Below the pieces are notes generated by a model. The model was not told the DNA's origin. It did not search any database and saw only the letters and a list, made by a program, of their open reading frames with translations. Below are positions 7,450 through 63,560 of a stretch of 64,000 nt of DNA, one piece after another (position 1 is the first letter of the stretch; each line of letters begins with the position of its first letter). The translations under genes and the position numbers were made by a program. The stretch is from Schlesneria paludicola DSM 18645 (GTDB taxonomy: Bacteria; Planctomycetota; Planctomycetia; Planctomycetales; Planctomycetaceae), in the NCBI GenBank assembly GCA_945862235.1, contig CAMAYU010000002.1, positions 1 through 64,000 of the forward strand, written 5' to 3'.

Positions 7450-7704
7450 GGCGCACACCACCCCGAAGCGTGAGCGAGGAATGGCGTTTCCGACAGAATT
7501 CGCAGCCGTAGTCCGGGCCCCTTGGTCCGGACGAGACCTCGCGCAGGCGAGCAACAGTATGCTCTGCAATCGCAGCGCATCGTCCGGACCAAGGGGGCCG
7601 GACTACGGCCTCAATTCGTCTGATTTCGACTTTTGTCGGAAACGTCAGGAATGGCTGGTCGGTCTCAGTCTCGTCCTCGCTCACGCTTCGGGTTAGTGTG
7701 CGTC
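7450..7704. repeat. Nested inverted repeat of about 255 bp
   Basis: Outer arms: CGCACACCACCCCGAAGCGTGAGCGAGGA-like DNA at 7453-7479 and its complement at 7676-7704. Middle: GGCGTTTCCGACA and TGTCGGAAACG-like. Inner: GCCGTAGTCCGG...TCCGGACGA (7505-7534) against the complement at 7579-7608. The whole gap between the two flanking genes is essentially one very large hairpin. The outer sequence (ACCCGAAGCGTGAGCGAGG) recurs at 17104, 29899 and 49287. Confidence 0.85.
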
Positions 7705-14301: not shown

Positions 14302-14463
14302 CCCTCTGAGCGAGACGGCGTCAGCCCAATGGCACTTACTTTAGATTTCTGTGAGCGGCATGGCGCTAGCCGCCGGTGTATTTTCAAATGAAAAACCGAC
14401 GGCTAGCGCCATGTCGCTCAGTAAAGTAAGTGCCATTGCGCTGACGCCGCCCCGCTCAGAGGG
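14302..14463. repeat. Compound 160-bp hairpin after glcF
   Basis: Outer arms: CCCTCTGAGCG...GGCGTCAGCCCAATGGCACTTACTTTA (14302-14343) against 14422-14463. Inner arms: GAGCGGCATGGCGCTAGCCGCCGGT (14353-14377) against 14395-14420. The inner module recurs near 38505-38575. It probably ends or stabilises the glc transcript. Confidence 0.8.
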
Positions 14464-17103: not shown

Positions 17104-17176
17104 CCAACCCGAAGCGTCAGCGAGGAGACCAAACGGATCGTCGTTGCTGTCGTCCTCACTCACGCTTCGGGTTGGT
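17104..17176. repeat. Palindromic repeat, ACCCGAAGCGT family
   Basis: CCAACCCGAAGCGTCAGCGAGGA (17104-17126) pairs with TCCTCACTCACGCTTCGGGTTGG (17153-17175) with two mismatches. It lies between phoU and phoB and could set different mRNA levels for the two. Confidence 0.8.
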
Positions 17177-17193
17177 GTTGTCGAAGTCTCTGG

Positions 17194-21190: not shown

Positions 21191-21266
21191 GTTTAACAGC
21201 GACCCTCTGGGGAACGCGTTGCTGGACATCTCCAGCAACGCGTTCCCCAGAGGGTCGCTGTTAAAC
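21191..21266. repeat. Perfect 36-bp inverted repeat between pstS and pstC
   Basis: Arms 21191-21226 and 21231-21266 are exact complements over 36 bases (GTTTAACAGCGACCCTCTGG...GTTGCTGGA) with a four-base loop CATC. It lies in the 406-bp gap between pstS and pstC, so the polycistronic RNA would carry an extremely stable hairpin there. This would let pstS accumulate above pstC, as is usual for a binding-protein gene. Confidence 0.9.
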
Positions 21267-26174: not shown

Positions 26175-27701
26175 TCAACCTGCTTGGAGCGCGTCGCGAA
26201 TCGTTTGCGACAAGCGGCTTTCTTCGACCTTCTCGGCCGCTCCAGTCTTCAGGTTCTTCACCTGCCAGAGACCTTGTGCGAACTCATCCGAACCGGCGAT
26301 CAGGGCAAGGGCGAATCCTTTGCGATCGGCGTACTTGAGTTGCTTGCCGAGCTTTGTCGCCTCCGGATAGACCTCGACGTTGATCCCGTCCGCCCGCAGC
26401 ATCCGCCCGATGCGGAGATAATCTCCGAGCCGCGCGGCATCGAACTGTGTGACGAGGACCGGCGCGGGTGTCGCTTGCGTGCCGATCAGCTTCAGTTCTT
26501 CCATCGCCGCCAACAGCCTATCTAGGCCGAGGCTGGCTCCCACGCCCGGCAGCCGCTCTTTGGTGAAGAGGCCCGCGAGATTGTCATACCTGCCGCCCGA
26601 ACAGACGCTGCCGATTGACGGCAAGTCGCCGAGAAACGTCTCGAAGATCGTGCCGGTGTAGTAGTCGAGGCCCCGTGCGATCGAGACATCCAATTCCACG
26701 CGGTCCATCGGCAGGCCCGCGGTCGTCGCGGCGGAGAACAGTTCACGCAGACGGCTCACGCCGAGCATCCCGGTTTCATTTCCGGCGAGCATCGTCGTCA
26801 GTTGATCGAGCGTGATCTGCGGGTTGGCCAGTTCGAGAACTTGCCGGGCCTGAGCCTCCGTCGCGCCGACTCGCTCGACCATCTCGGCCACCACGGCATC
26901 GGCCCCGATCTTGGCGAGTTTGTCGAGCGACCGCAGCACACCGACGGTCTTGTCTTGCAGGCCGAGCTGACTCAACACGCCGTTCAAGATCAGCCGGTTG
27001 TTCACGCGGATCGTGAACCGCTCGAAGCCGAGCGCGACGAGGAGGTCGTGAATGACGAGCAGCGTCTCGATGTCGGAGGCGTTGGCGTCGGTGCCGATGG
27101 TGTCGAAGTCGCACTGGACGAACTCGCGATACCGACCGCGCTGGGTGTTCTCACCGCGCCAGACGGGAGCGATGTGATAACGCTTGAACGGCGTTCCAAT
27201 CTCAGCCAAGTGCTGCGCTGTAAAGCGTGCGAGCGGCACGGTCAGGTCGAACCGCATCGCCACGTCGCGGTCGCCGCTGTCCTTGAATTGGAAGAGTTGC
27301 TTGTCGGATTCCTCGCCCCCTTTGCCGGTCAAAATCTCGGCATACTCCAAGGCGGGAGTGTCGATCGGGCTGAAGCCATAGCTGCGGAAGACGCGCCGCG
27401 CGGTCTCCATCAGCCGCTCGCGCACGAGCATGGTTTCGGGCAGGTAATCGCGGAAGCCTTTGAGCGTGCGCGGAGTGATAAGTGGTGATGTCACGGGAGG
27501 TTGAGGGTCTATCGTTGAGAGTTGATGGTCTAAGGTTGAGAGTTGATGGTCTAACTTTGGGACTTGGTGGCCCATTGTCGGGACTTGGATGTCTATTGGT
27601 GAGACTTGGTGGTCCATCGGTAAGACCTTGAGGTCCATCGGCGGGACTTTGTGGTCCATTGGTGAGACTTTTAGGTCTATCGGCGGGACTTGGTGGTCCA
27701 T
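26175..27701 (-). CDS. hisS: Histidine-tRNA ligase with a heptad-repeat N-terminal extension
   Basis: The core, from PRTLKGFRDYLP, is a complete class II HisRS of about 430 residues: motif 1 region, motif 2 RYHIAPVWRGENTQRGRYREFVQCDFD, histidine motifs ARGLDYYTGTIFE and CSGGRYDNL, motif 3 GVGASLGLDRLL, and the anticodon-binding domain PVLVTQFDA to the C-terminus. It charges tRNA-His. Ahead of the core are ten exact heptads of the type (M/I/L)DHQVPP, encoded by a 21-bp tandem repeat, which are unknown in HisRS. No ribosome-binding site decides the start: ATG 27701 includes all heptads, GTG 27494 excludes them. The second would give a normal-length enzyme of 440 residues. Confidence 0.88.
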   Translation of the reverse strand: MDHQVPPIDLKVSPMDHKVPPMDLKVLPMDHQVSPIDIQVPTMGHQVPKLDHQLSTLDHQLSTIDPQPPVTSPLITPRTLKGFRDYLPETMLVRERLMETARRVFRSYGFSPIDTPALEYAEILTGKGGEESDKQLFQFKDSGDRDVAMRFDLTVPLARFTAQHLAEIGTPFKRYHIAPVWRGENTQRGRYREFVQCDFDTIGTDANASDIETLLVIHDLLVALGFERFTIRVNNRLILNGVLSQLGLQDKTVGVLRSLDKLAKIGADAVVAEMVERVGATEAQARQVLELANPQITLDQLTTMLAGNETGMLGVSRLRELFSAATTAGLPMDRVELDVSIARGLDYYTGTIFETFLGDLPSIGSVCSGGRYDNLAGLFTKERLPGVGASLGLDRLLAAMEELKLIGTQATPAPVLVTQFDAARLGDYLRIGRMLRADGINVEVYPEATKLGKQLKYADRKGFALALIAGSDEFAQGLWQVKNLKTGAAEKVEESRLSQTIRDALQAG

Positions 27702-27730
27702 TAGTCAGACTTTGAGGTCTATCGCCTAAA
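27495..27730. repeat. 21-bp tandem repeat at the 5' end of hisS
   Basis: About eleven units of a 21-bp sequence, such as GGGACTTGGTGGTCCATTGG on the plus strand, run from the hisS core to 27730, with units alternating between DHQV and DLKV codings. The last units (27500-27560) become GAGGGTTGATGGTCTA-like. Repeat phase is an exact multiple of three, so the frame stays open through all of it. Confidence 0.85.
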
Positions 27731-29898: not shown

Positions 29899-30136
29899 AC
29901 CAACCCGCAGCGTGAGCGAGGGCGGAGTCTGAGAGGCTGTCCGAGAACTGGGCTTGCCGCGACAGGTGAAGAACTATTGTCTTGGGTGCCACGGTCACGG
30001 CGATGCGTGGCCGTGGCTTCGCTACAACCCAAGCACGGCCACGCAAAGCCGTGACCGTGGTGCCCTGAAAGTAAGCCATTCTTTTCGGATCGCCTCTGCG
30101 TGACATCCGTCCTCGCTCACGCTGCGGGTTGGTATG
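29899..30136. repeat. Two nested palindromic repeats
   Basis: Outer arms ACCAACCCGCAGCGTGAGCGAGG (near 29900) and TCCTCGCTCACGCTGCGGGTTGGT (near 30112-30135) belong to the ACCCGAAGCGT family. Inner arms GGGTGCCACGGTCACGGC (29985-) and GCCGTGACCGTGGTGCCC (to about 30064) form a second hairpin. It lies between the convergent ftsW and permease genes. Confidence 0.8.
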
Positions 30137-30160
30137 CAGAGCAACCTCGATGCGTGCGTT

Positions 30161-34577: not shown

Positions 34578-34595
34578 TCCTCAAACAAGCGAACC

Positions 34596-34830
34596 CCACC
34601 GGGCTTGCCCCGGTGGCTCGCGGGTTTTTGCACTACTCGCCGCGCCGCTTCGAGTGAATGAGTGAGTTAGGCGACCGGCAAGAGAAAGTTGCCCCGACAC
34701 TCCGTGGCGGGAACGGTTCGTGTCACGGAGTGACACGTCTACTTTGGGTAAATCAGGTCTTGCCGATCGTCTTAGTGCAAAGACCTGTTTCCACCGGGGC
34801 AAGCCCGGTGGGGCGCTTCTTTTTGGGTTC
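34596..34830. repeat. Palindromic repeat, ACCGGGCTTGCCCCGGTGG family
   Basis: GAACCCCACCGGGCTTGCCCCGGTGG...TTTTTGCACTAC (34591-34635) pairs with TAGTGCAAAGACCTGTTTCCACCGGGGCAAGCCCGGTGGGG (34774-34814). The same element is at 51114, 62408 and 63429. Each arm also folds on itself (ACCGGGCTTGCCCCGGT). Confidence 0.85.
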
Positions 34831-38330: not shown

Positions 38331-38408
38331 GTCACATTCCCTTCATTTTACCGCTGCGAGCATCTGGTTTGTTTTGTCGAGAGCACGCGTTCACCAAATC
38401 AATTTCAG

Positions 38409-38613
38409 GTGAGCCAGGTGCCGTCAGCCCCCGGACTTTTCGCCACAGAAGTCCGGGGGCTGACGCCTAATGGCACTCACGTTGTCATTCATCTCCGTGA
38501 GCGGTCCGGCGCTAGCCGCCGGTTCTTTGCTTGGAAACACAACTCCGTTTACCGGCGGCTAGCGCCTTGCCGCTCAAAGTGACTGCCATTGGGCTGACGC
38601 CACCCGGCTCACC
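38409..38613. repeat. Compound palindromic repeat
   Basis: GGTGAGCCAGGTGCCGTCAGCCCCCGGACTT (38409-) with GTCCGGGGGCTGACGCC, then the CGCTAGCCGCCGG/CCGGCGGCTAGCG module (38514-38570) and a closing GGCTGACGCCACCCGGCTCACC (to 38613). It combines the GAGCCGGGTGGCGTCAGCC family with the module at 14353. It fills the gap 38331-38652, where no gene is seen. Confidence 0.8.
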
Positions 38614-38652
38614 AAGACCGGCCCATTAACAACCGCGCGAGGCAGAATCGTT

Positions 38653-40317: not shown

Positions 40318-40483
40318 CACGGACTCCTTGAAGAAACACGGCCAACGGGACTCGCATCGGACGGGCCGGATGATAATCTGAGCCTCGCCCTCCGACGACT
40401 CACTTGACGATCAACCTCTCGATTCGGGGGCACCAAGAATTTGGTGCATCAATAGCGGTCGGAATTTTGCTGTGTGGTTTTTT

Positions 40484-40553
40484 GTGAGCCGGGTGCCCTA
40501 AGGCCCCGGATTGTTCGTTGAGGAAGTCCGGGGCCTTACGGCACCCGGCTCAC
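40484..40553. repeat. Palindromic repeat, GTGAGCCGGGTG family
   Basis: GTGAGCCGGGTGCCCTAAGGCCCCGGA (40484-40510) pairs with TCCGGGGCCTTACGGCACCCGGCTCAC (40527-40553), imperfect at one inner base. It lies 30 bp before the first DUF1549/DUF1553 gene and has sisters inside coding DNA at 46328 and between genes at 48005 and 60787. Confidence 0.85.
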
Positions 40554-40586
40554 CAGTTTCTGAAGGTTGTGGATGCGCCAGCCCCA

Positions 40587-43500
40587 ATGTTTTGTAAACG
40601 CTCGCTGCGGGAGACGACTTTGAATCGCACGACATTCCCGATCACCGTCGGCTCCCTGCTGTTCGGCATGTTCTCAGTACACGCCGCCGATGCGCCGCAG
40701 TTCGGCCGTGACGTTGCTCCGCTAATCCAGCGGCATTGCGTGAAATGTCATGGTCCGGCGAAGCAGGAGGGGAAGCTCAACGCCTCGTCGGTGAGCGGCT
40801 TGATTCGCGGAGGCGAAAGCGGTGCCGTACTCGTCCCGCATGATGTCGCTGCGAGTCTGCTCTGGAAACGCGTCTCATCCGATGAGATGCCACCCGATGC
40901 ACTGTTGTCGGCCGATGAGAAATCACTCCTCAAGCGATGGATCATCGCGGGGATGCCGGGCCTCGTTCGTGACGCGAGGCCCACCGACGGTGCGGAGCAT
41001 TGGGCGTTTCGCCCGCTTGTTGTCGCATCCTCTGAGGACAAAGAGACCAAGCCGAAGCGAGAAGGAAAAGAATCCCTCGCCCTCACCCCGCAAGGCCGGG
41101 GCGAGGGGACAAGAGGCACACTCGACTCGTATCTCGCCGCCGACCTTGCTCGTGACGGGCTGACGTTGTCGCCTGAGGCGGATCGCGCGACGCAGACCCG
41201 GCGCGTCAGTTTCGATCTGACGGGGTTGCCTCCGACTCCCGAGGCGATTGACGAATTCATCGCGGACAAACGTCCTGATGCTTACGAGCGGATGGTCGAT
41301 CGTTACCTCGCGTCGCCTCATTACGGCGAGCGACTCGGCAAGTTGTGGCTCGATGCGGCGGGCTATGCCGACTCGAATGGCTACTTCAGCGCCGACACCG
41401 ACCGGCCGCTGGCCTTTCGCTACCGCGACTACGTCATTCGTGCGATCAACAGCGACAAGCCGTTCGATCAGTTCGTGAGAGAGCAGCTCGCGGGTGATGA
41501 ACTCGCAAACATCACTGCACGAAACGGACAGACCGTCGCCTTCTCACCTCCCTCTTCTCCTTCAACCCTCGCCCCTCAACCCTCAACCGTTCTCGACCTG
41601 CTCGAAGCAACGCACTATCTGCGCAACGGCCAAGACGGGAGTGGCGAGAGCGATGGCAATCCGGATGAAGTGCAAGTCGATCGCTACACCGTGATCGAGA
41701 CCGCGATGCAGAACATCTCAACCGGGTTGCTCGGTCTGACGATCCAATGTGCGAAGTGTCACGACCACAAGTTCGAGCCGCTCACACAGCGGGACTATTA
41801 CAGTTTGCAGGCGGTTCTCATTCCGGCGTTTCCGCCTGACCAATGGGTCAAGCCGAACGACCGCTTTGTCTACGCGAGTCTGCCCGGCGAGGTCGAAGCA
41901 TGGCAGCAACGGCTCACTCAGGCCGAGACGACGGTCGCGCGGTTGCAGTCCGAGGTCACCGAGTGGGTCAAACAACATCGACCTCGCGGGACAATGCTCT
42001 TCGCGGACGGATTCGATGCGCCGCCCGAGACGCTGGGCGAACGCTGGTCGAACACGGCACCCGGTGACGACGCACCGGGTGGGACTGCGGCGGTGAATCT
42101 CAATTCGCGCGAGGCCCCCGGCGCAGTCGTCGTCGATGGCAAGCTGCAACTCATCGAAGGTGGTCCCAGCGGCGACAAATGGCTCTCGACGAAGTTGCCG
42201 TTCGACTGGACACCCGATGTCGTCGGAGCCTCGATCCAAGTGACGTTCGATCTGATCGACAACCGCATCGAGGGATCGAATGCCGCCGACCGGATCGGCT
42301 ACTTCATCGCGCTGCACGACTTCCACGACAACAGTCCGACGCCCGGCGGCAACATCCTGATCGATGGCCATCCGTCTTCAAGCACGGCCGTTCATCCCGA
42401 CTATCCCGGCGGCGACTCGACTCAAGCCGGAGTCATCGGCACGACCGGCTACCAGCCGGGGCGCAACTACGGAGTAAGAATCACCAACAACGGGGGCGGC
42501 AAGTTCGTGATGGAGCAGTTCGTCGATTGGCAGGTTGAGGAGAAGTCGATCACGTTCGCCGAGACCGATCTGCCCGCCGGCGGCTTCGGTTTCGAGTTCT
42601 GTTGCGGGCGGAGCTTCATCATCGACAACGTGGCCATCGAATCGTTTGCCTTGACCGACGGCAAGCACCCGCTGATCGAGTTCCTCGCCGAACTAAAGTC
42701 CAAACGCGAGCCGCTCGATGAAGCGTTGAAGACCAAGACTGCGCTCGCTGCGGCTCGCCCCGGCAAGATCGCGTGGACCACGGACCTCGTTGAACAGCCG
42801 CCGCAAACGCACGTCTTCATTCGCGGCAACTACCACACACCGGGCGAATCGGTTGAACCGGCGGGCTTCGCCATTCTTTCTCCCTCCCCTCGGCGGGGAG
42901 GGCTGGGAAGTGGGGTCGATGAACCATCGAATCGCAACCCGCAAGCAGCCACCCTCCCTAACTCGCTTCCCTCCAAGGTGGGGGGCGAGGAGACAACGCC
43001 GAAGGCAGAAGAGCCCCTCACCCTAGCCCTCTCCCCGCAAGGCCGGGGCGAGGGGACAGAGCCAGAAGCTTCGCGCAATATCGGTCGCCGTTCTGCCTTG
43101 GCGAAATGGATTACTCAGCCCGGCGCGCCCGCCTCATCGTTGCTGGCCCGAGTCCACGTGAACCGACTTTGGCAACATCACTTCGGGACCGGCATCGTCT
43201 CGACCCCCGACAACTTTGGCGTGAGTGGCTCGCCCCCGTCGCATCCGGAACTGCTCGACTGGCTCGCGACCGAGTTCATCCGCTCGGGTTGGAGTCCAAA
43301 GCGTGTGACGCGATGGATTGTGAACTCGGCCTCTTACAGGCAGAGCAGTCTCGCCGATGAACGCCGCTCACCGCTTGATCCCGATGCGCGGCGGTTGTCG
43401 CGGTTCCCCGTGCGTCGTCTCGATGCCGAGGCGATTCGTGACACGATGCTGTTCGCGAGCGGAGATCTTGATGACCGGCTGTTCGGACCGTACATCGCGA

Positions 43501-43982
43501 CGAGTCGTACGGGAGCAGGTGAGACCGTCGTCGCCGAAGACAAACCGGGGGCCAGACGCCGCTCGATCTACCTCCAACAAAAGCGGACACAGGTTCACAG
43601 TCTGCTCCAAGTCTTCGACGCGCCGAGCATCGTCTTTAACAGCACCCGCCGACCTCGTTCCACGATGCCGTTGCAGTCGCTGAGCCTGCTCAATTCCGAC
43701 TTCTCCGTCGCGCGAGCGCGCAGTCTGACAGCGAGGTTGGAATACGATCTGACCAGTGATTTGGAGCGGCTGACGCGTGCGTTCGTACTCACGCAAGGAC
43801 ACCCACCGACGGACGAACAAGCCTCGGCGGCGATGCTGTTCTTGGCCGAGCAGGCTGCGGAATACGCGCGCCCCGAAGGGGGTGACGGCACTCACCGTAG
43901 CCCGCGCGATGCGAGACAACGCGCGTGGCACGACCTCAGCCAGATGCTGCTGATTGGGAACGCGGCGCTGTATCTGGAATGA
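40587..43982 (+). CDS. DUF1549/DUF1553 (PSD1) secreted cytochrome c-type protein
   Basis: 1131 residues from ATG 40587; the frame upstream runs through a palindromic repeat. Domains: signal peptide (about 12-35), then the cytochrome-c-like domain QRHCVKCHGPAKQEGKL (CxxCH haem motif, about residue 55), DUF1549 (about 185-450, with GLPPTPEAIDEF, HYGERLGKLWLDAAGYADSNGY and QCAKCHDHKFEP), a concanavalin-like insert (about 490-690), then DUF1553 (from GRRSALAKWITQ to the end, with HVNRLWQHHFGTGIV and RLDAEAIRD). The family is predicted to be surface redox proteins of planctomycetes, often linked to sugar degradation. Three palindromic repeats are translated inside it (see repeats). Confidence 0.9.
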   Translation: MFCKRSLRETTLNRTTFPITVGSLLFGMFSVHAADAPQFGRDVAPLIQRHCVKCHGPAKQEGKLNASSVSGLIRGGESGAVLVPHDVAASLLWKRVSSDEMPPDALLSADEKSLLKRWIIAGMPGLVRDARPTDGAEHWAFRPLVVASSEDKETKPKREGKESLALTPQGRGEGTRGTLDSYLAADLARDGLTLSPEADRATQTRRVSFDLTGLPPTPEAIDEFIADKRPDAYERMVDRYLASPHYGERLGKLWLDAAGYADSNGYFSADTDRPLAFRYRDYVIRAINSDKPFDQFVREQLAGDELANITARNGQTVAFSPPSSPSTLAPQPSTVLDLLEATHYLRNGQDGSGESDGNPDEVQVDRYTVIETAMQNISTGLLGLTIQCAKCHDHKFEPLTQRDYYSLQAVLIPAFPPDQWVKPNDRFVYASLPGEVEAWQQRLTQAETTVARLQSEVTEWVKQHRPRGTMLFADGFDAPPETLGERWSNTAPGDDAPGGTAAVNLNSREAPGAVVVDGKLQLIEGGPSGDKWLSTKLPFDWTPDVVGASIQVTFDLIDNRIEGSNAADRIGYFIALHDFHDNSPTPGGNILIDGHPSSSTAVHPDYPGGDSTQAGVIGTTGYQPGRNYGVRITNNGGGKFVMEQFVDWQVEEKSITFAETDLPAGGFGFEFCCGRSFIIDNVAIESFALTDGKHPLIEFLAELKSKREPLDEALKTKTALAAARPGKIAWTTDLVEQPPQTHVFIRGNYHTPGESVEPAGFAILSPSPRRGGLGSGVDEPSNRNPQAATLPNSLPSKVGGEETTPKAEEPLTLALSPQGRGEGTEPEASRNIGRRSALAKWITQPGAPASSLLARVHVNRLWQHHFGTGIVSTPDNFGVSGSPPSHPELLDWLATEFIRSGWSPKRVTRWIVNSASYRQSSLADERRSPLDPDARRLSRFPVRRLDAEAIRDTMLFASGDLDDRLFGPYIATSRTGAGETVVAEDKPGARRRSIYLQQKRTQVHSLLQVFDAPSIVFNSTRRPRSTMPLQSLSLLNSDFSVARARSLTARLEYDLTSDLERLTRAFVLTQGHPPTDEQASAAMLFLAEQAAEYARPEGGDGTHRSPRDARQRAWHDLSQMLLIGNAALYLE
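41074..41110. repeat. Palindromic element translated in the DUF1549 gene
   Basis: CCCTCGCCCTCACCCCGCAAGGCCGGGGCGAGGG lies in frame, coding for LALTPQGRGEG just after the N-terminal domain. The same element occurs at 43014-43057 (also coding) and, on the opposite strand, at 57919-57962 and 59433-59477 (non-coding). Confidence 0.85.
43014..43057. repeat. Second copy of the palindromic element in the same gene
   Basis: CCCCTCACCCTAGCCCTCTCC then CCGCAAGGCCGGGGCGAGGGG codes in frame for PLTLALSPQGRGEG. It follows another repeat-like segment, 42884-43000 (CCCTCGGCGGGGAGGG and CCTCCAAGGTGGGGGGCGAGGAG), so about 55 residues here come from repeat DNA. Confidence 0.85.
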
Positions 43983-44131: not shown

Positions 44132-47100
44132 ATGCGGACGATCACTGCCATCGCCACGATGAACGCGACCCTCGTACTCGCGGCGCTGCTGTCGCGAACG
44201 GCCGTCGCCGCAGACGATGCCGGCTTGGAATTCTTCGAGAAACGAGTCCGCCCGCTGCTCATCACGCACTGCTACGAATGTCACTCGGCCGACGCAAAGA
44301 ATCTCGGCGGTGAGCTGCGATTGGACGATGCTGACAGCATCCGCCGTGGGGGTGAGACCGGAGCGGCCATCAACGCGACTACGCCCGATGCCAGCTTGCT
44401 CCTCAAGGCGATCCGGTACGACAACGATGATTTGAAGATGCCTCCCAAAGGACGATTGCCCGAGGCGGCGCTGGCCGATCTGACCGAGTGGGTTCGTCGC
44501 GGCGCACCGGCTCCTGTCGGAAAACCGGTCGCCCCGAAGGCCGGTGAAGCGTGGGAGCAAGTGTTCAAACAGAGGCTCAATTGGTGGAGTCTGCATCCGG
44601 TGCGAAAGCCTGCGGTTCCGCAGATCGCTCGGGCCGACTGGTCACAGCATCCGATCGACCAACACATCCTGAGTCGTCTCGAAGCGGCGGACCTCGTCCC
44701 TGCGAAGGGTGCCGAGCCGCGAACGCTCGCGCGGCGATTGAGTCTCGTTCTGACCGGTCTCCCACCGACGAGTGAGCAGCTCGCGGCATTCGAGAGTGCG
44801 AGCGCGAAGCCAGCCGCAGCCGCAGCCGTTGAGTCGCTCGTCGATTCGCTCTTGGCGTCACCTCATTTTGGCGAGCGCTGGGCGCGGCACTGGCAGGATG
44901 TCGTGCGGTTCTCCGAGACGCACGGCAACGAGTGGAACTATGAAGTCCATCATGCTTGGCGTTACCGCGACTACCTGATTCGCGCCTTCAACGACGACGT
45001 GCCGTATGACCAACTCATCCGCGAGCACATCGCGGGCGACTTGCTCGCAGAACCGCGTTGGAACCGGCGTGACAACTTTCGCGAGTCCCCCATCGGCACC
45101 GCCTTCTTCCGATTTGGCGAGGTCAATCACGACGATTGCAGTACGTTGAAGTCGATCGGCTACGACGTGGCCGACAATCAGCTCGACACGCTGACGAAGG
45201 CGTTCCAAGCAACAACGGTCGCCTGTGCGCGGTGCCACGATCATAAGCTCGATGCGATCTCGACCAAGGACTACCACGCGCTGCTCGGTGTGGTCCGCAG
45301 CTCGCGCTTGGTCGGTCACACGCTGGATGGACCAGAGGTGAACGACAAGCCGATCGGCGCGCTGCTCGATTTGAAATCGAAGTTGAGGACCGAGGCCGCG
45401 CGTCTCTGGCTGGAGCAACTTCCGGAGCTGCGCGAGTACCTCGTAGCAACTCTCGCGGGAACAGGCGGACGCCCCGCCGATGCGGCTCTGGTCGCGAAGC
45501 TCGATCCGCAGAAGCTCGCGAGGTGGAATGCGATCACGCAGGACAAACCGTTCCCGCTGGAAGACCCCTTCGAGCCGTGGCGCGTCATGGCGACGATGCC
45601 GCGCGACGATGCCGCGCGAGTCGCAGCCGAGTGGCAAGCACTCGCGACGCGCTACGCCACCGAAGACCGCACACGCACTGAGTTCAACAAAACGGCGTTC
45701 GAGACCTTCGCCGAATTCGGTCCGTGTGATGGTCCTGAACACCGTTCCGAATGGCAAATGGACGGTCACGCCTTGCGATTCATCCCGTGCAGCACCGGCT
45801 GGCCAGTCCTGACATCCGAGGGCGAGACGTTGCTCACCGCGATCCTGCCCGCCGGGCTGCACACTCACTTGGCGTCGGACAAACTGAACGGTGCGATTCG
45901 GTCACCACTCCTCACGGGGAAGAAGAAACATCTCAGTTTTCAAGTCGCTGGCCAGCGCAGCAGCGCGGTGCGGTTGGTCTCGAACAATTGCCAGTTGAAC
46001 TACGCCAACTATCGCGCGCTCACGTCGCCCGAGTTCAACTGGGTCACGTTCTCGCCGTCCGAAGACCGCGATTCGCTGCGCGTCTATGCCGAGTTGATGA
46101 CCATGTTTGACAACCCGAAGTTCCCCGATCAGCTCAGCGCACTCGGAGGCGATCCGGCCAACTACAAACTCCCGTATGAGCAGGCGGCCGAAAATCCCCG
46201 CTCGTACTTTGGGATCACACGTGCCGTCTGGCACGATGGCGGCGAAACGCCTCGCGCCGAGCTGAGTCCCCTGCGTCGGCTGTTCGCGATGGGGAATGAG
46301 GATGACGCCGTATTGAAGAGCGAATCAGGTGAGCCGGGTGGCGTCAGCCTGCGGACTCTTGGCGAGTCTCGAAGAGTCCGCGGGCTGACGCCACCCGGCA
46401 CACCCAAAACCGTGATCTCGTTCGACGACATCGCCGAGCGTTACATCGATTCGATCCGCCGCGCGATCCATGCGTGGGGCGACGACAAGGCGACGGACGA
46501 TGACGTAGCGTGGCTCAACACACTGCTCAAGCGAGGACTGCTGAACAACTCGACCACAATGTCGCCGCGCGTCGCCGAGTTGATCGCGGACTTTCGTCGC
46601 ACGGAGAACGAACTCGTTCGACCGCGCGTCTCACCCGGCGTGGCTGACTTCGGGCCGGGCTGTCAGCAACCGGTGCTGATTCGCGGCGATTGCTTCCGAC
46701 CGGGCGAGCCGGTGGCGCGACGCTACCTCGACGCGCTGTCTCCCGCGAACGACCACTTCCCCGCCGAAGGGAGCGGGCGGCTGGAACTCGCACAGCGAAT
46801 TGCCTCGCGCGACAACCCGCTCACCGCGCGCGTGATGGTCAATCGCGTGTGGCATCACGTGTTCGGGGCCGGGCTGGTGCGGACGGTCGATGACTTCGGG
46901 CATCTCGGCGAACTGCCGTCGCATCCCGAACTGCTCGATGAACTGGCCGGACGTTTCGTGGACGAAGGCTGGTCGGTCAAGAAGCTGATCCGGTTCATCG
47001 TCCTCTCACGCACCTTTCAATTGGCCAACGAACCGAGTCCGCTCGCCCGCGAGATCGATCCCGAAAACCGGTTGCTTCAGCATTACTCGTCGCGACGCTT

Positions 47101-47650
47101 GGAGGCCGAAGCCATTCGCGATGCGGTCCTCGCGACTTCGGGGCGGCTCGACCGAACGCAGTTCGGCCCGAGCATCCAGCCGTACCGCGAACAATCGAAC
47201 GCCGATCGCCGGTTGTTCGCCGGTCCACTCGATGGTCTCGGCCGACGGAGCGTCTACATCAAACAGAACCTGATGGAGTCGCCTCATTTTCTGGGAGCCT
47301 TCAATTTCCCCAGCGGCGAGGTGGCTGAAGGCCGTCGAGACGTGACGAACGTTCCAGCGCAGGCCCTCGCGCTGCTCAACGATCCATTCGTGTTGCAGCA
47401 AGCCGACGTTTGGGGACAGCGTTTGGTGAGTCGCACCGATCAGACTCTGTCCGCACGAATTGAGGCGATGTTCGTGACCGCCCTCGGTCGCCCGCCGCGC
47501 GCTGACGAACGGAGCCAGTTCGCGGAAGTCGTCGCCTCGTTGGCCGAACTGCATCAGGTTCCGAGCGACCAAGTGCTGACCAGCGCCGCCGTCTGGAAGG
47601 ACGCCGCGCACGCCGTCTTCAACCTGCGCGAGTTCATCTCGATTCCATGA
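44132..47650 (+). CDS. DUF1549/DUF1553 (PSD1) secreted cytochrome c-type protein, second copy
   Basis: 1172 residues. Signal peptide (about 1-26, TLVLAALLSRTAVAAD), then a haem-binding domain with LITHCYECHSADAKNLGGELRL (CxxCH, near residue 49), DUF1549 (LTGLPPTSEQL, HFGERWARHWQDVVRFSETHG, TVACARCHDHKLDA), a long middle region and DUF1553 (RLELAQRIASRDNPLTARVMVNRVWHHVFG to the end). It is a distant paralogue of the gene before it, arranged in tandem. A palindromic element is translated at about residues 730-760 (SGEPGGVSLRTLGE). No DUF1501 gene follows, although the two usually pair. Confidence 0.9.
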   Translation: MRTITAIATMNATLVLAALLSRTAVAADDAGLEFFEKRVRPLLITHCYECHSADAKNLGGELRLDDADSIRRGGETGAAINATTPDASLLLKAIRYDNDDLKMPPKGRLPEAALADLTEWVRRGAPAPVGKPVAPKAGEAWEQVFKQRLNWWSLHPVRKPAVPQIARADWSQHPIDQHILSRLEAADLVPAKGAEPRTLARRLSLVLTGLPPTSEQLAAFESASAKPAAAAAVESLVDSLLASPHFGERWARHWQDVVRFSETHGNEWNYEVHHAWRYRDYLIRAFNDDVPYDQLIREHIAGDLLAEPRWNRRDNFRESPIGTAFFRFGEVNHDDCSTLKSIGYDVADNQLDTLTKAFQATTVACARCHDHKLDAISTKDYHALLGVVRSSRLVGHTLDGPEVNDKPIGALLDLKSKLRTEAARLWLEQLPELREYLVATLAGTGGRPADAALVAKLDPQKLARWNAITQDKPFPLEDPFEPWRVMATMPRDDAARVAAEWQALATRYATEDRTRTEFNKTAFETFAEFGPCDGPEHRSEWQMDGHALRFIPCSTGWPVLTSEGETLLTAILPAGLHTHLASDKLNGAIRSPLLTGKKKHLSFQVAGQRSSAVRLVSNNCQLNYANYRALTSPEFNWVTFSPSEDRDSLRVYAELMTMFDNPKFPDQLSALGGDPANYKLPYEQAAENPRSYFGITRAVWHDGGETPRAELSPLRRLFAMGNEDDAVLKSESGEPGGVSLRTLGESRRVRGLTPPGTPKTVISFDDIAERYIDSIRRAIHAWGDDKATDDDVAWLNTLLKRGLLNNSTTMSPRVAELIADFRRTENELVRPRVSPGVADFGPGCQQPVLIRGDCFRPGEPVARRYLDALSPANDHFPAEGSGRLELAQRIASRDNPLTARVMVNRVWHHVFGAGLVRTVDDFGHLGELPSHPELLDELAGRFVDEGWSVKKLIRFIVLSRTFQLANEPSPLAREIDPENRLLQHYSSRRLEAEAIRDAVLATSGRLDRTQFGPSIQPYREQSNADRRLFAGPLDGLGRRSVYIKQNLMESPHFLGAFNFPSGEVAEGRRDVTNVPAQALALLNDPFVLQQADVWGQRLVSRTDQTLSARIEAMFVTALGRPPRADERSQFAEVVASLAELHQVPSDQVLTSAAVWKDAAHAVFNLREFISIP
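46328..46404. repeat. 33-bp inverted repeat translated inside the second DUF1549/DUF1553 gene
   Basis: Left arm 46328-46360 (GGTGAGCCGGGTGGCGTCAG...) and right arm 46372-46404 match as complements at 31 of 33 positions, with an 11-base loop. It is read in frame as GEPGGVSLRTLGESRRVRGL then TPPGTP. Non-coding sisters are at 48005 and 60787. Confidence 0.9.
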
Positions 47651-47654
47651 TGGA

Positions 47655-48122
47655 AGTCATTAGTCACTGGTAATTAGTCGCTTAGGGGAAATAGCCAGCG
47701 TTTCTGCTTCCCCCTAATGACGAATGACCAGAGACGAATGACTTCTCCAAGTGAACATCCTCTCCGCCCCAAAATCTGGAACTTGCCAGAAACGATTTGA
47801 CGACTGCCGAACCTGACCTATGTTCATTGGTGTCGGGGCAACCCGGCCAACAAACTGTTCGACGCGATCACTGAAACACAGCCGGTTCCGCACTGCGGGG
47901 CCGGATGTCCGAGCGCGGCAAGGAGGAGCTGGGAGCTTCGAGGGGACCTTGCCGTGCTTTCTTTTTTCTTTGGGAGGCGAGCCGAAAACTCAAGTTCGAG
48001 TCTTGGTGAGCCGGGTGGCGTCAGCCTCCGGACTCCTGTCGTGAAGAGTCCGGGGGCTGACGCCCATTGCCGCTCACGGAGTGCAAGACAAAGTGAGTGC
48101 CATTGGGCTGACGCCACCCGGC
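47655..48122. repeat. Two palindromic repeats in a 560-bp gap
   Basis: First: GAAGTCATTAGTCACTGG...CTTAGGGGAAA (from 47653) against CCCCCTAATGACGAATGACCAG...GACTTC (to 47755). Second: GGTGAGCCGGGTGGCGTCAGCCTCCGGACTC (48005-) against GAGTCCGGGGGCTGACGCC and, further on, GGGCTGACGCCACCCGGC (to about 48122). No gene is recognisable in 47651-48215. Confidence 0.8.
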
Positions 48123-48215
48123 GCATCAAGAATGTTTCCTCGACGACCGTGAAGGACGGACGAGCACCTCTAGGTTTCACGCCTCAGCCAGTACAGACGA
48201 CCTTTTTAAACCATC

Positions 48216-51113: not shown

Positions 51114-51270
51114 CTCAAACAAGCGAACCCACCGGGCTTGTCCCGGTGGAAATAGGTTTTTGCACTCGTTGCTCAGTCACTCGTTGCTCAGTCACTCGAA
51201 TCGGCTCGGTGGGTAGTGCAAAAAACTGCGAGCCACCGGGGCAAGCCCGGTGGGGTCGCTTGTTTGTTTA
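51114..51270. repeat. Palindromic repeat, ACCGGGCTTGCCCCGGTGG family
   Basis: CAAACAAGCGAACCCACCGGGCTTGTCCCGGTGG (51116-51149) pairs with GAGCCACCGGGGCAAGCCCGGTGGGGTCGCTTGTTTG (51230-51266). Inside lies a 15-bp tandem pair, CTCGTTGCTCAGTCA twice (51166-51195). It fills most of the 300-bp gap 51009-51308. Confidence 0.85.
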
Positions 51271-60681: not shown

Positions 60682-60786
60682 GACTTCACCAGAAACCAAT
60701 CAGGATTTTTGAGTACAGATTTCACGGATCGGTACAGATCAGAGAAGAATTCGGTAGTTGACTTGTTCGACGAGAATCTGAATTCG

Positions 60787-60859
60787 CTGAGTCGGGTGGC
60801 GTAAGCCCCCGAATTCTTGGTTGCCATCAAGAGTCCGGGGGCTTACGCCACCCGGCTCA
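60787..60859. repeat. Palindromic repeat, GTGAGCCGGGTGG family
   Basis: CTGAGTCGGGTGGCGTAAGCCCCCGAA (60787-60813) pairs with TCCGGGGGCTTACGCCACCCGGCTCA (60833-60858). It is the same family as the translated element at 46328. It separates the aldehyde dehydrogenase and vertex genes, in a 262-bp gap. Confidence 0.85.
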
Positions 60860-60943
60860 CCAGTTCCTGATTAGCCTCCGCCTCAATTTGCCTGCGTCAT
60901 ATCTGTGCCCATCCGTGTTATCTGTGGTTGAAATCTTCTGCCT

Positions 60944-62365: not shown

Positions 62366-62407
62366 GATGAATGGTCTCGATGTTTGTTGGTTTGTTTTTG
62401 CTATCGC

Positions 62408-62588
62408 CCCACCGGACTTGCCCCGGTGGCTCGCGGGTCGTTGCACTACTTGATTACTGGCATTTCTCTTGCGGAGGAGCGGTCGCTCTGAAGAGGAATG
62501 GTCGTTCTGAAATGGTCGTTCTGAATCTGAAATGGTCGTTCTGAAGTAGTGCAGAAACCTGTTTCCACCGGGACAAGCCCGGTGGGGT
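62408..62588. repeat. Palindromic repeat, ACCGGGCTTGCCCCGGTGG family, with internal tandem repeat
   Basis: CCCCACCGGACTTGCCCCGGTGGCTCG...GCACTACTT (62407-62452) pairs with AGTAGTGCAGAAACCTGTTTCCACCGGGACAAGCCCGGTGGGG (62545-62587). The loop has three to four copies of GAAATGGTCGTTCT (62498-62545). It lies between the membrane-protein gene and the aldehyde dehydrogenase gene. Confidence 0.85.
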
Positions 62589-63414: not shown

Positions 63415-63428
63415 CTGATTCACTCCAA

Positions 63429-63545
63429 ACGCCACCGGGCTTGTCCCGGTGGATTAAGGTTTTTGCACTACTCACGGCTCGTCGGCACGATTCGCTGTCG
63501 AGTAGTGCAGAAACCTGTGAACCACCGGGGCAAGCCCGGTGGGGT
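63429..63545. repeat. Palindromic repeat, ACCGGGCTTGCCCCGGTGG family
   Basis: ACGCCACCGGGCTTGTCCCGGTGG...TTTTTGCACTACTC (63430-63474) pairs with GAGTAGTGCAGAAACCTGTGAACCACCGGGGCAAGCCCGGTGGGG (63500-63544). It lies in the 146-bp gap between acetate kinase and the vertex protein. Confidence 0.85.
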
Positions 63546-63560
63546 TTCGGTCTATGTTGG

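Follow-up and report, generated by a model that had tools for sequence, protein, structure and literature searches.

The palindromic segment translated within a DUF1549/DUF1553 gene of this window (the whole stretch of 64,000 nucleotides that was analysed) is very probably a non-autonomous mobile element, an inverted pair of REP hairpins (REPIN), which inserted into the linker of variable length that separates the DUF1549 and DUF1553 domains. It belongs to a dispersed repeat family, here called REPIN-A, whose copies form doublets with compensatory changes in the stem, and it is absent from homologues of the host protein. The case is real and recurrent; the phenomenon is known, and no description of this repeat family was found. 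Coordinates of the features are collected in Table 1.

Table 1. Palindromic repeat elements of the window and the genes that they enter or adjoin
Feature	Position	Strand	Remarks
REPIN-A copy	46328..46404	+	in frame in host gene; encodes GEPGGVSLRTLGESRRVRGLTPPGTP
Left arm, one REP hairpin unit	46328..46360	+	31/33 complementary to right arm
Right arm, inverted REP unit	46372..46404	+	fold and arm complementarity
Host gene, PSCyt1 + PSCyt2 (DUF1549) + PSD1 (DUF1553)	44132..47650	+	1172 aa
REPIN-A-type copy, intergenic	38408..38479	+	diverged; right half mosaic
REPIN-A copy	40483..40554	+	just upstream of probable start of neighbouring gene; compensatory stem changes
REPIN-A-type copy, intergenic	48005..48078	+	mosaic
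REPIN-A copy, intergenic	60786..60861	+	
REPIN-B, related subfamily (GCTAGC loop type)	14350..14422	+	nested between arms 14302-14343 and 14422-14463
Neighbouring PSCyt1-DUF1549-DUF1553 gene with F2 inserts	40518..43982	+	
F2 palindrome, in frame	41074..41111	+	reads SLALTPQGRGEGT
F2 palindrome, in frame	43014..43064	+	reads PLTLALSPQGRGEGT; 13 homologues lack the stretch

The element is a palindrome of 77 nt with two 33-nt arms, and the coordinates, frame and arm complementarity given in the sequence-only reading proved exact, as did its placing of the palindrome inside an open frame to which it adds about 25 residues. Pfam domain matches locate it between PSCyt2 and PSD1 in the host protein. 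Folded as single-stranded DNA it reaches -44.9 kcal/mol (z = -11.2 against shuffles), and it is matched at an E-value of about 4e-16 by a covariance model whose training copies included this one.

The expectation that the segment is an in-frame gain, and not a stretch carried by all orthologues, was borne out by alignment. Amongst the homologues compared (L031-L036 and L038-L048; L037 was not counted), all 17 that were usable across this region of the host gene, from the same genus, family or class, lack the segment, although an exact empty site is not showable in this gene because the loop length varies among homologues, the site of insertion being a linker of variable length. Additionally, 77 nt is not divisible by three, which requires a change in one or more flanking bases as well. 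Similar in-frame gains were established by alignment for two more hosts, an AMP-ligase with about 44 extra residues, of which about 25 are the element, and an FAD oxidoreductase with about 75, of which about 38 are the element; in each case 19 homologues lack the segment, and the presence in two hosts of residues beyond the element means that exact insertion borders are not fixable. For the remaining six in-frame cases the basis is an open frame and coding signal. The element could instead mark a chimeric assembly junction or a pseudogene, as might be suspected in a fragmented assembly (377 contigs, several ending at repeats; 97% complete), but such an artefact is extremely improbable, as the frame is open, the coding signal is strong on either side of the element (0.68 and 0.77), the protein is about 60% identical to its homologues over the full length with its domains intact, and the same pattern recurs in several other genes.

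The covariance model, built from 18 copies (alignment A1), recognised more than 70 distinct copies in the source genome, and an HMM search of 1.59 Mb of that genome gave 162 copies, a number not to be scaled to the genome because this DNA was chosen mostly around copies. The consensus consists of GGTGAGCCGGGYGGCGTCAGCCCCCGGACTCTT, a loop and then the inverted arm. Taken alone, each arm of the consensus forms an imperfect, doubly bulged hairpin (-10.9 and -10.6 kcal/mol, z about -3), and the arms occur as 110 doublets, all inverted, 69 singlets and 6 clusters, giving a singlet to doublet ratio of 0.63, below the value of 2 used to recognise REPINs. Two inverted REP units with a short spacer, each unit an imperfect hairpin, and a mainly extragenic location (9/147 copies in frame in genes) are likewise features of REPINs. 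In the stem, 7 pairs were found to be changed on both sides, with a covariation score above that of 500/500 shuffles. Element lengths concentrate at 71-72 and 77-78, and the adjoining base is mostly T. The architecture is that of a REPIN except that GT[AG]G is absent from the hairpin foot, the consensus starting with GGTGAG. The target site duplication of a classical MITE was not seen above shuffled expectation in 68 copies.

The other copies in the window are real, including the diverged ones reported in the sequence-only reading at 38409 and 40484. Those at 48005 and 60787 had been called near-identical and non-coding; they too are genuine, but the term is too strong, as over 37 nt their left arms share 92% and 76% identity, respectively, with that of the 46328 copy, and the right half of the 48005 copy differs from it. 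Nested or mosaic combinations of REPIN subfamilies were observed at 14302-14463, 38408-38617 and 48005-48131, as though one subfamily had inserted into, or recombined with, another. Besides these, a perfect 36-bp inverted repeat with a 4-nt loop at 21191-21266 lies outside the REPIN-A, REPIN-B and F2 families as well as the CCACCGGGGCAAGCCCGGTGG and L063-like families mentioned below, and tandem repeats are present at 27485-27722 (21-bp period) and 592-719 (16-bp period).

REPIN-A is strongly depleted from genes overall. On counting the motif in coding and intergenic parts of the 1.59 Mb, with in-gene calls made by a purpose-made hexamer coding score, the in-frame share of 9/147 contrasts with random 75-nt windows, 54% of which were called in-gene (p about 1e-35); a cruder gene call, under which 80% of the DNA is coding, placed 15/162 copies inside genes. 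At least 8 further in-frame copies are thus present in the source genome besides the one at 46328-46404, and the hosts of all the in-frame copies comprise DUF1549/DUF1553 proteins, the AMP-ligase, a FabA-domain protein, a DUF7133 cytochrome protein, the FAD oxidoreductase, an HTTM protein and an O-antigen ligase-like protein, the inserts lying mostly between or outside the matched Pfam domains. The FabA-domain protein (L131, 2-4135), a probable polyunsaturated fatty acid synthase, contains within a single frame two copies of REPIN-A as well as inserts of F2 type.

All nine in-frame copies share one register. This bias is weak (p = 0.05) because that register is also the likeliest to be open: it is open in 70% of intergenic copies, as compared with 27% and 3% for the other two. 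Selection on the peptide register was considered and rejected, as the register is usually open anyway and is not kept in other species: of 105 copies in other Planctomycetaceae assemblies, 3 are read in frame within genes, and 2 of these use a different register. These observations bear on whether the added Gly/Pro/Arg-rich linker peptide has been co-opted, with selection favouring it for some function, for example flexibility or interaction at the surface. The frame is kept open in several copies and the inserts lie in inter-domain linkers, as co-option would predict; however, in-gene and intergenic copies do not differ in palindrome quality or model score, register use tracks which frame is open, the host proteins are unrelated to one another and the homologues do without the segment. 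On this evidence a function of the added peptide is unlikely, and co-option is quite improbable. The hairpin might alternatively be kept for a role in nucleic acid, such as stabilising mRNA, pausing ribosomes between domains or serving as a site for protein binding, its translation being incidental. The very stable fold and the compensatory stem changes would suit such a role, which nevertheless appears quite unlikely given that copies are strongly depleted in genes, that the intergenic ones do not clearly favour convergent gene pairs and that compensatory changes are likewise expected from the copying of an active palindrome.

On the preferred reading, a REP doublet in a tolerant linker, the element would have been copied by a Y1 HuH single-strand transposase belonging to a clade seen in relatives. 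An in-gene copy may survive where one palindrome frame happens to be open and the linker tolerates extra residues, and selection would remove most other insertions into genes. A RAYT is the probable mobiliser of the doublet. Among the six Y1 genes of the source genome none is flanked by the element (they have other REP types or none), and no convincing match came from the first 35 Y1 loci compared in this genome and its relatives. In the relative G004, a 188-aa Y1 transposase (L379) has palindromes of REPIN-A type on both sides. Close homologues of L379 (E below 1e-30) occur in 12/59 genomes searched, and the element is found in 9 of these 12 as against 11 of the 47 others (p = 0.0015). Similarly, the REP core lies near 7/15 genes of the L379 clade and near 5/88 other Y1 genes (p = 0.0002), an association that is partly ascertained on L379, as this locus was found by screening and is therefore counted in the clade. 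A close member of the clade was not found in the source genome, where the best L379 homologue is 36% identical and has other flanks; the copies there look orphaned, or the transposase gene lies in the unassembled part. Covariance-model matches were obtained in 20/59 relatives, and the exact half-consensus matches are in Planctomycetaceae assemblies, including, among the matches listed, Schlesneria- and Planctomicrobium-labelled ones.

A second palindrome family, F2 (CCCTCTCCCCGCAAGGCCGGGGCGAGGGG), behaves differently with respect to genes: 28/58 copies are in frame within genes, not different from random placement. F2 inserts in the window lie at 41074-41111 and 42873-43064, and the family is read in frame as PLTLALSPQSRGEGT, PHPNPLPAKPGRGDK and in other frames with no gene avoidance, which is possibly more striking than the case of REPIN-A. 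Other repeats were also noted. Copies of the palindrome family CCACCGGGGCAAGCCCGGTGG lie at 34592-34662, 51116-51266, 62407-62588 and 63428-63546, and 0/50 copies of this family are in frame in genes; short repeats at 7672-7701, 17151-17180 and 30108-30137 resemble the REP flanking the source genome's Y1 transposase L063, with 0/50 copies in genes. The open-frame count of the families' partial consensus was examined as a cause of the differences in gene occupancy and did not explain them. With in-frame rates of 28/58 for F2, 9/147 for REPIN-A and 0/100 for two other families, it is tempting, but tentative, to suppose that several unrelated palindrome families (REPIN-A, REPIN-B, F2) of this planctomycete lineage steadily add in-frame segments to inter-domain linkers at rates set by the repeat sequence, and that linker growth in the large DUF1549/DUF1553 paralogues is partly repeat-driven. 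Beyond the reduced genomes of rickettsiae, in which the idea of such segments arose, this gene-rich bacterium with its large genome offers a setting where repeat-derived protein segments can be counted for each family and compared between families.

The likeness to Rickettsia palindromic elements (RPEs) drawn in the sequence-only reading holds for behaviour, namely a palindrome that is dispersed and is retained in frame as a peptide segment that homologues lack, here in at least 8 other genes as well, but not for kinship. REPIN-A differs in sequence, stem, loop, size and end motif, and its host is free-living with a large genome; the CGTC tag at one end, an RPE trait according to PMC3733652, is absent from REPIN-A, which ends in GGTGAG / CTCACC. 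Nearly half of the R. conorii RPEs are in genes according to a review of these elements (PMC10969869), as against 6% of REPIN-A copies. The further remark that no established planctomycete equivalent exists does not stand as regards REPs in general, since PMC3733652 (Di Nocera 2013) reports REP families from Planctomycetes, R. baltica among them, together with translated REPs inside genes of several other bacteria, with most cases in Opitutus terrae and R. conorii. PMC6006769 also deals with planctomycete REPs. No description of REPIN-A, or of in-frame copies of it in planctomycete genes, was found in the literature, and the intragenic REPs listed in PMC3733652 may include planctomycete entries. 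The GTAG/CGTC intragenic REPs treated there resemble REPIN-A in being in-frame palindromes of 20-30 residues in unrelated genes, explained by tolerance in loops or linkers, and the paper suggests that such REPs are neutral in loops; unlike them, REPIN-A has neither tag at its ends and a planctomycete host, and F2 avoids genes not at all.

Amongst TnpA-Y1 transposases (PMC6006769), subclass 2.4 includes REPs inserted in tnpA genes with the frame unbroken, and class 3 is mainly planctomycete with atypical REPs; the tyrosine motif of the L379 type, YIRNQ, is not clearly the class 3 signature. The association found here also ties an untagged REP type to a specific transposase clade, a link that is biochemically testable. 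As compared with REPINs and RAYTs (Bertels and Rainey 2011, PMC3116915), REPIN-A lacks the GT[AG]G foot and a cognate transposase found in the source genome, and a minority of its copies lie in genes and are read in frame. It shares with them the two inverted REP hairpins with a short spacer, a length of about 71-78 nt, the high copy number, the compensatory changes, the excess of doublets over singlets and, in relatives, the link to a Y1 transposase.
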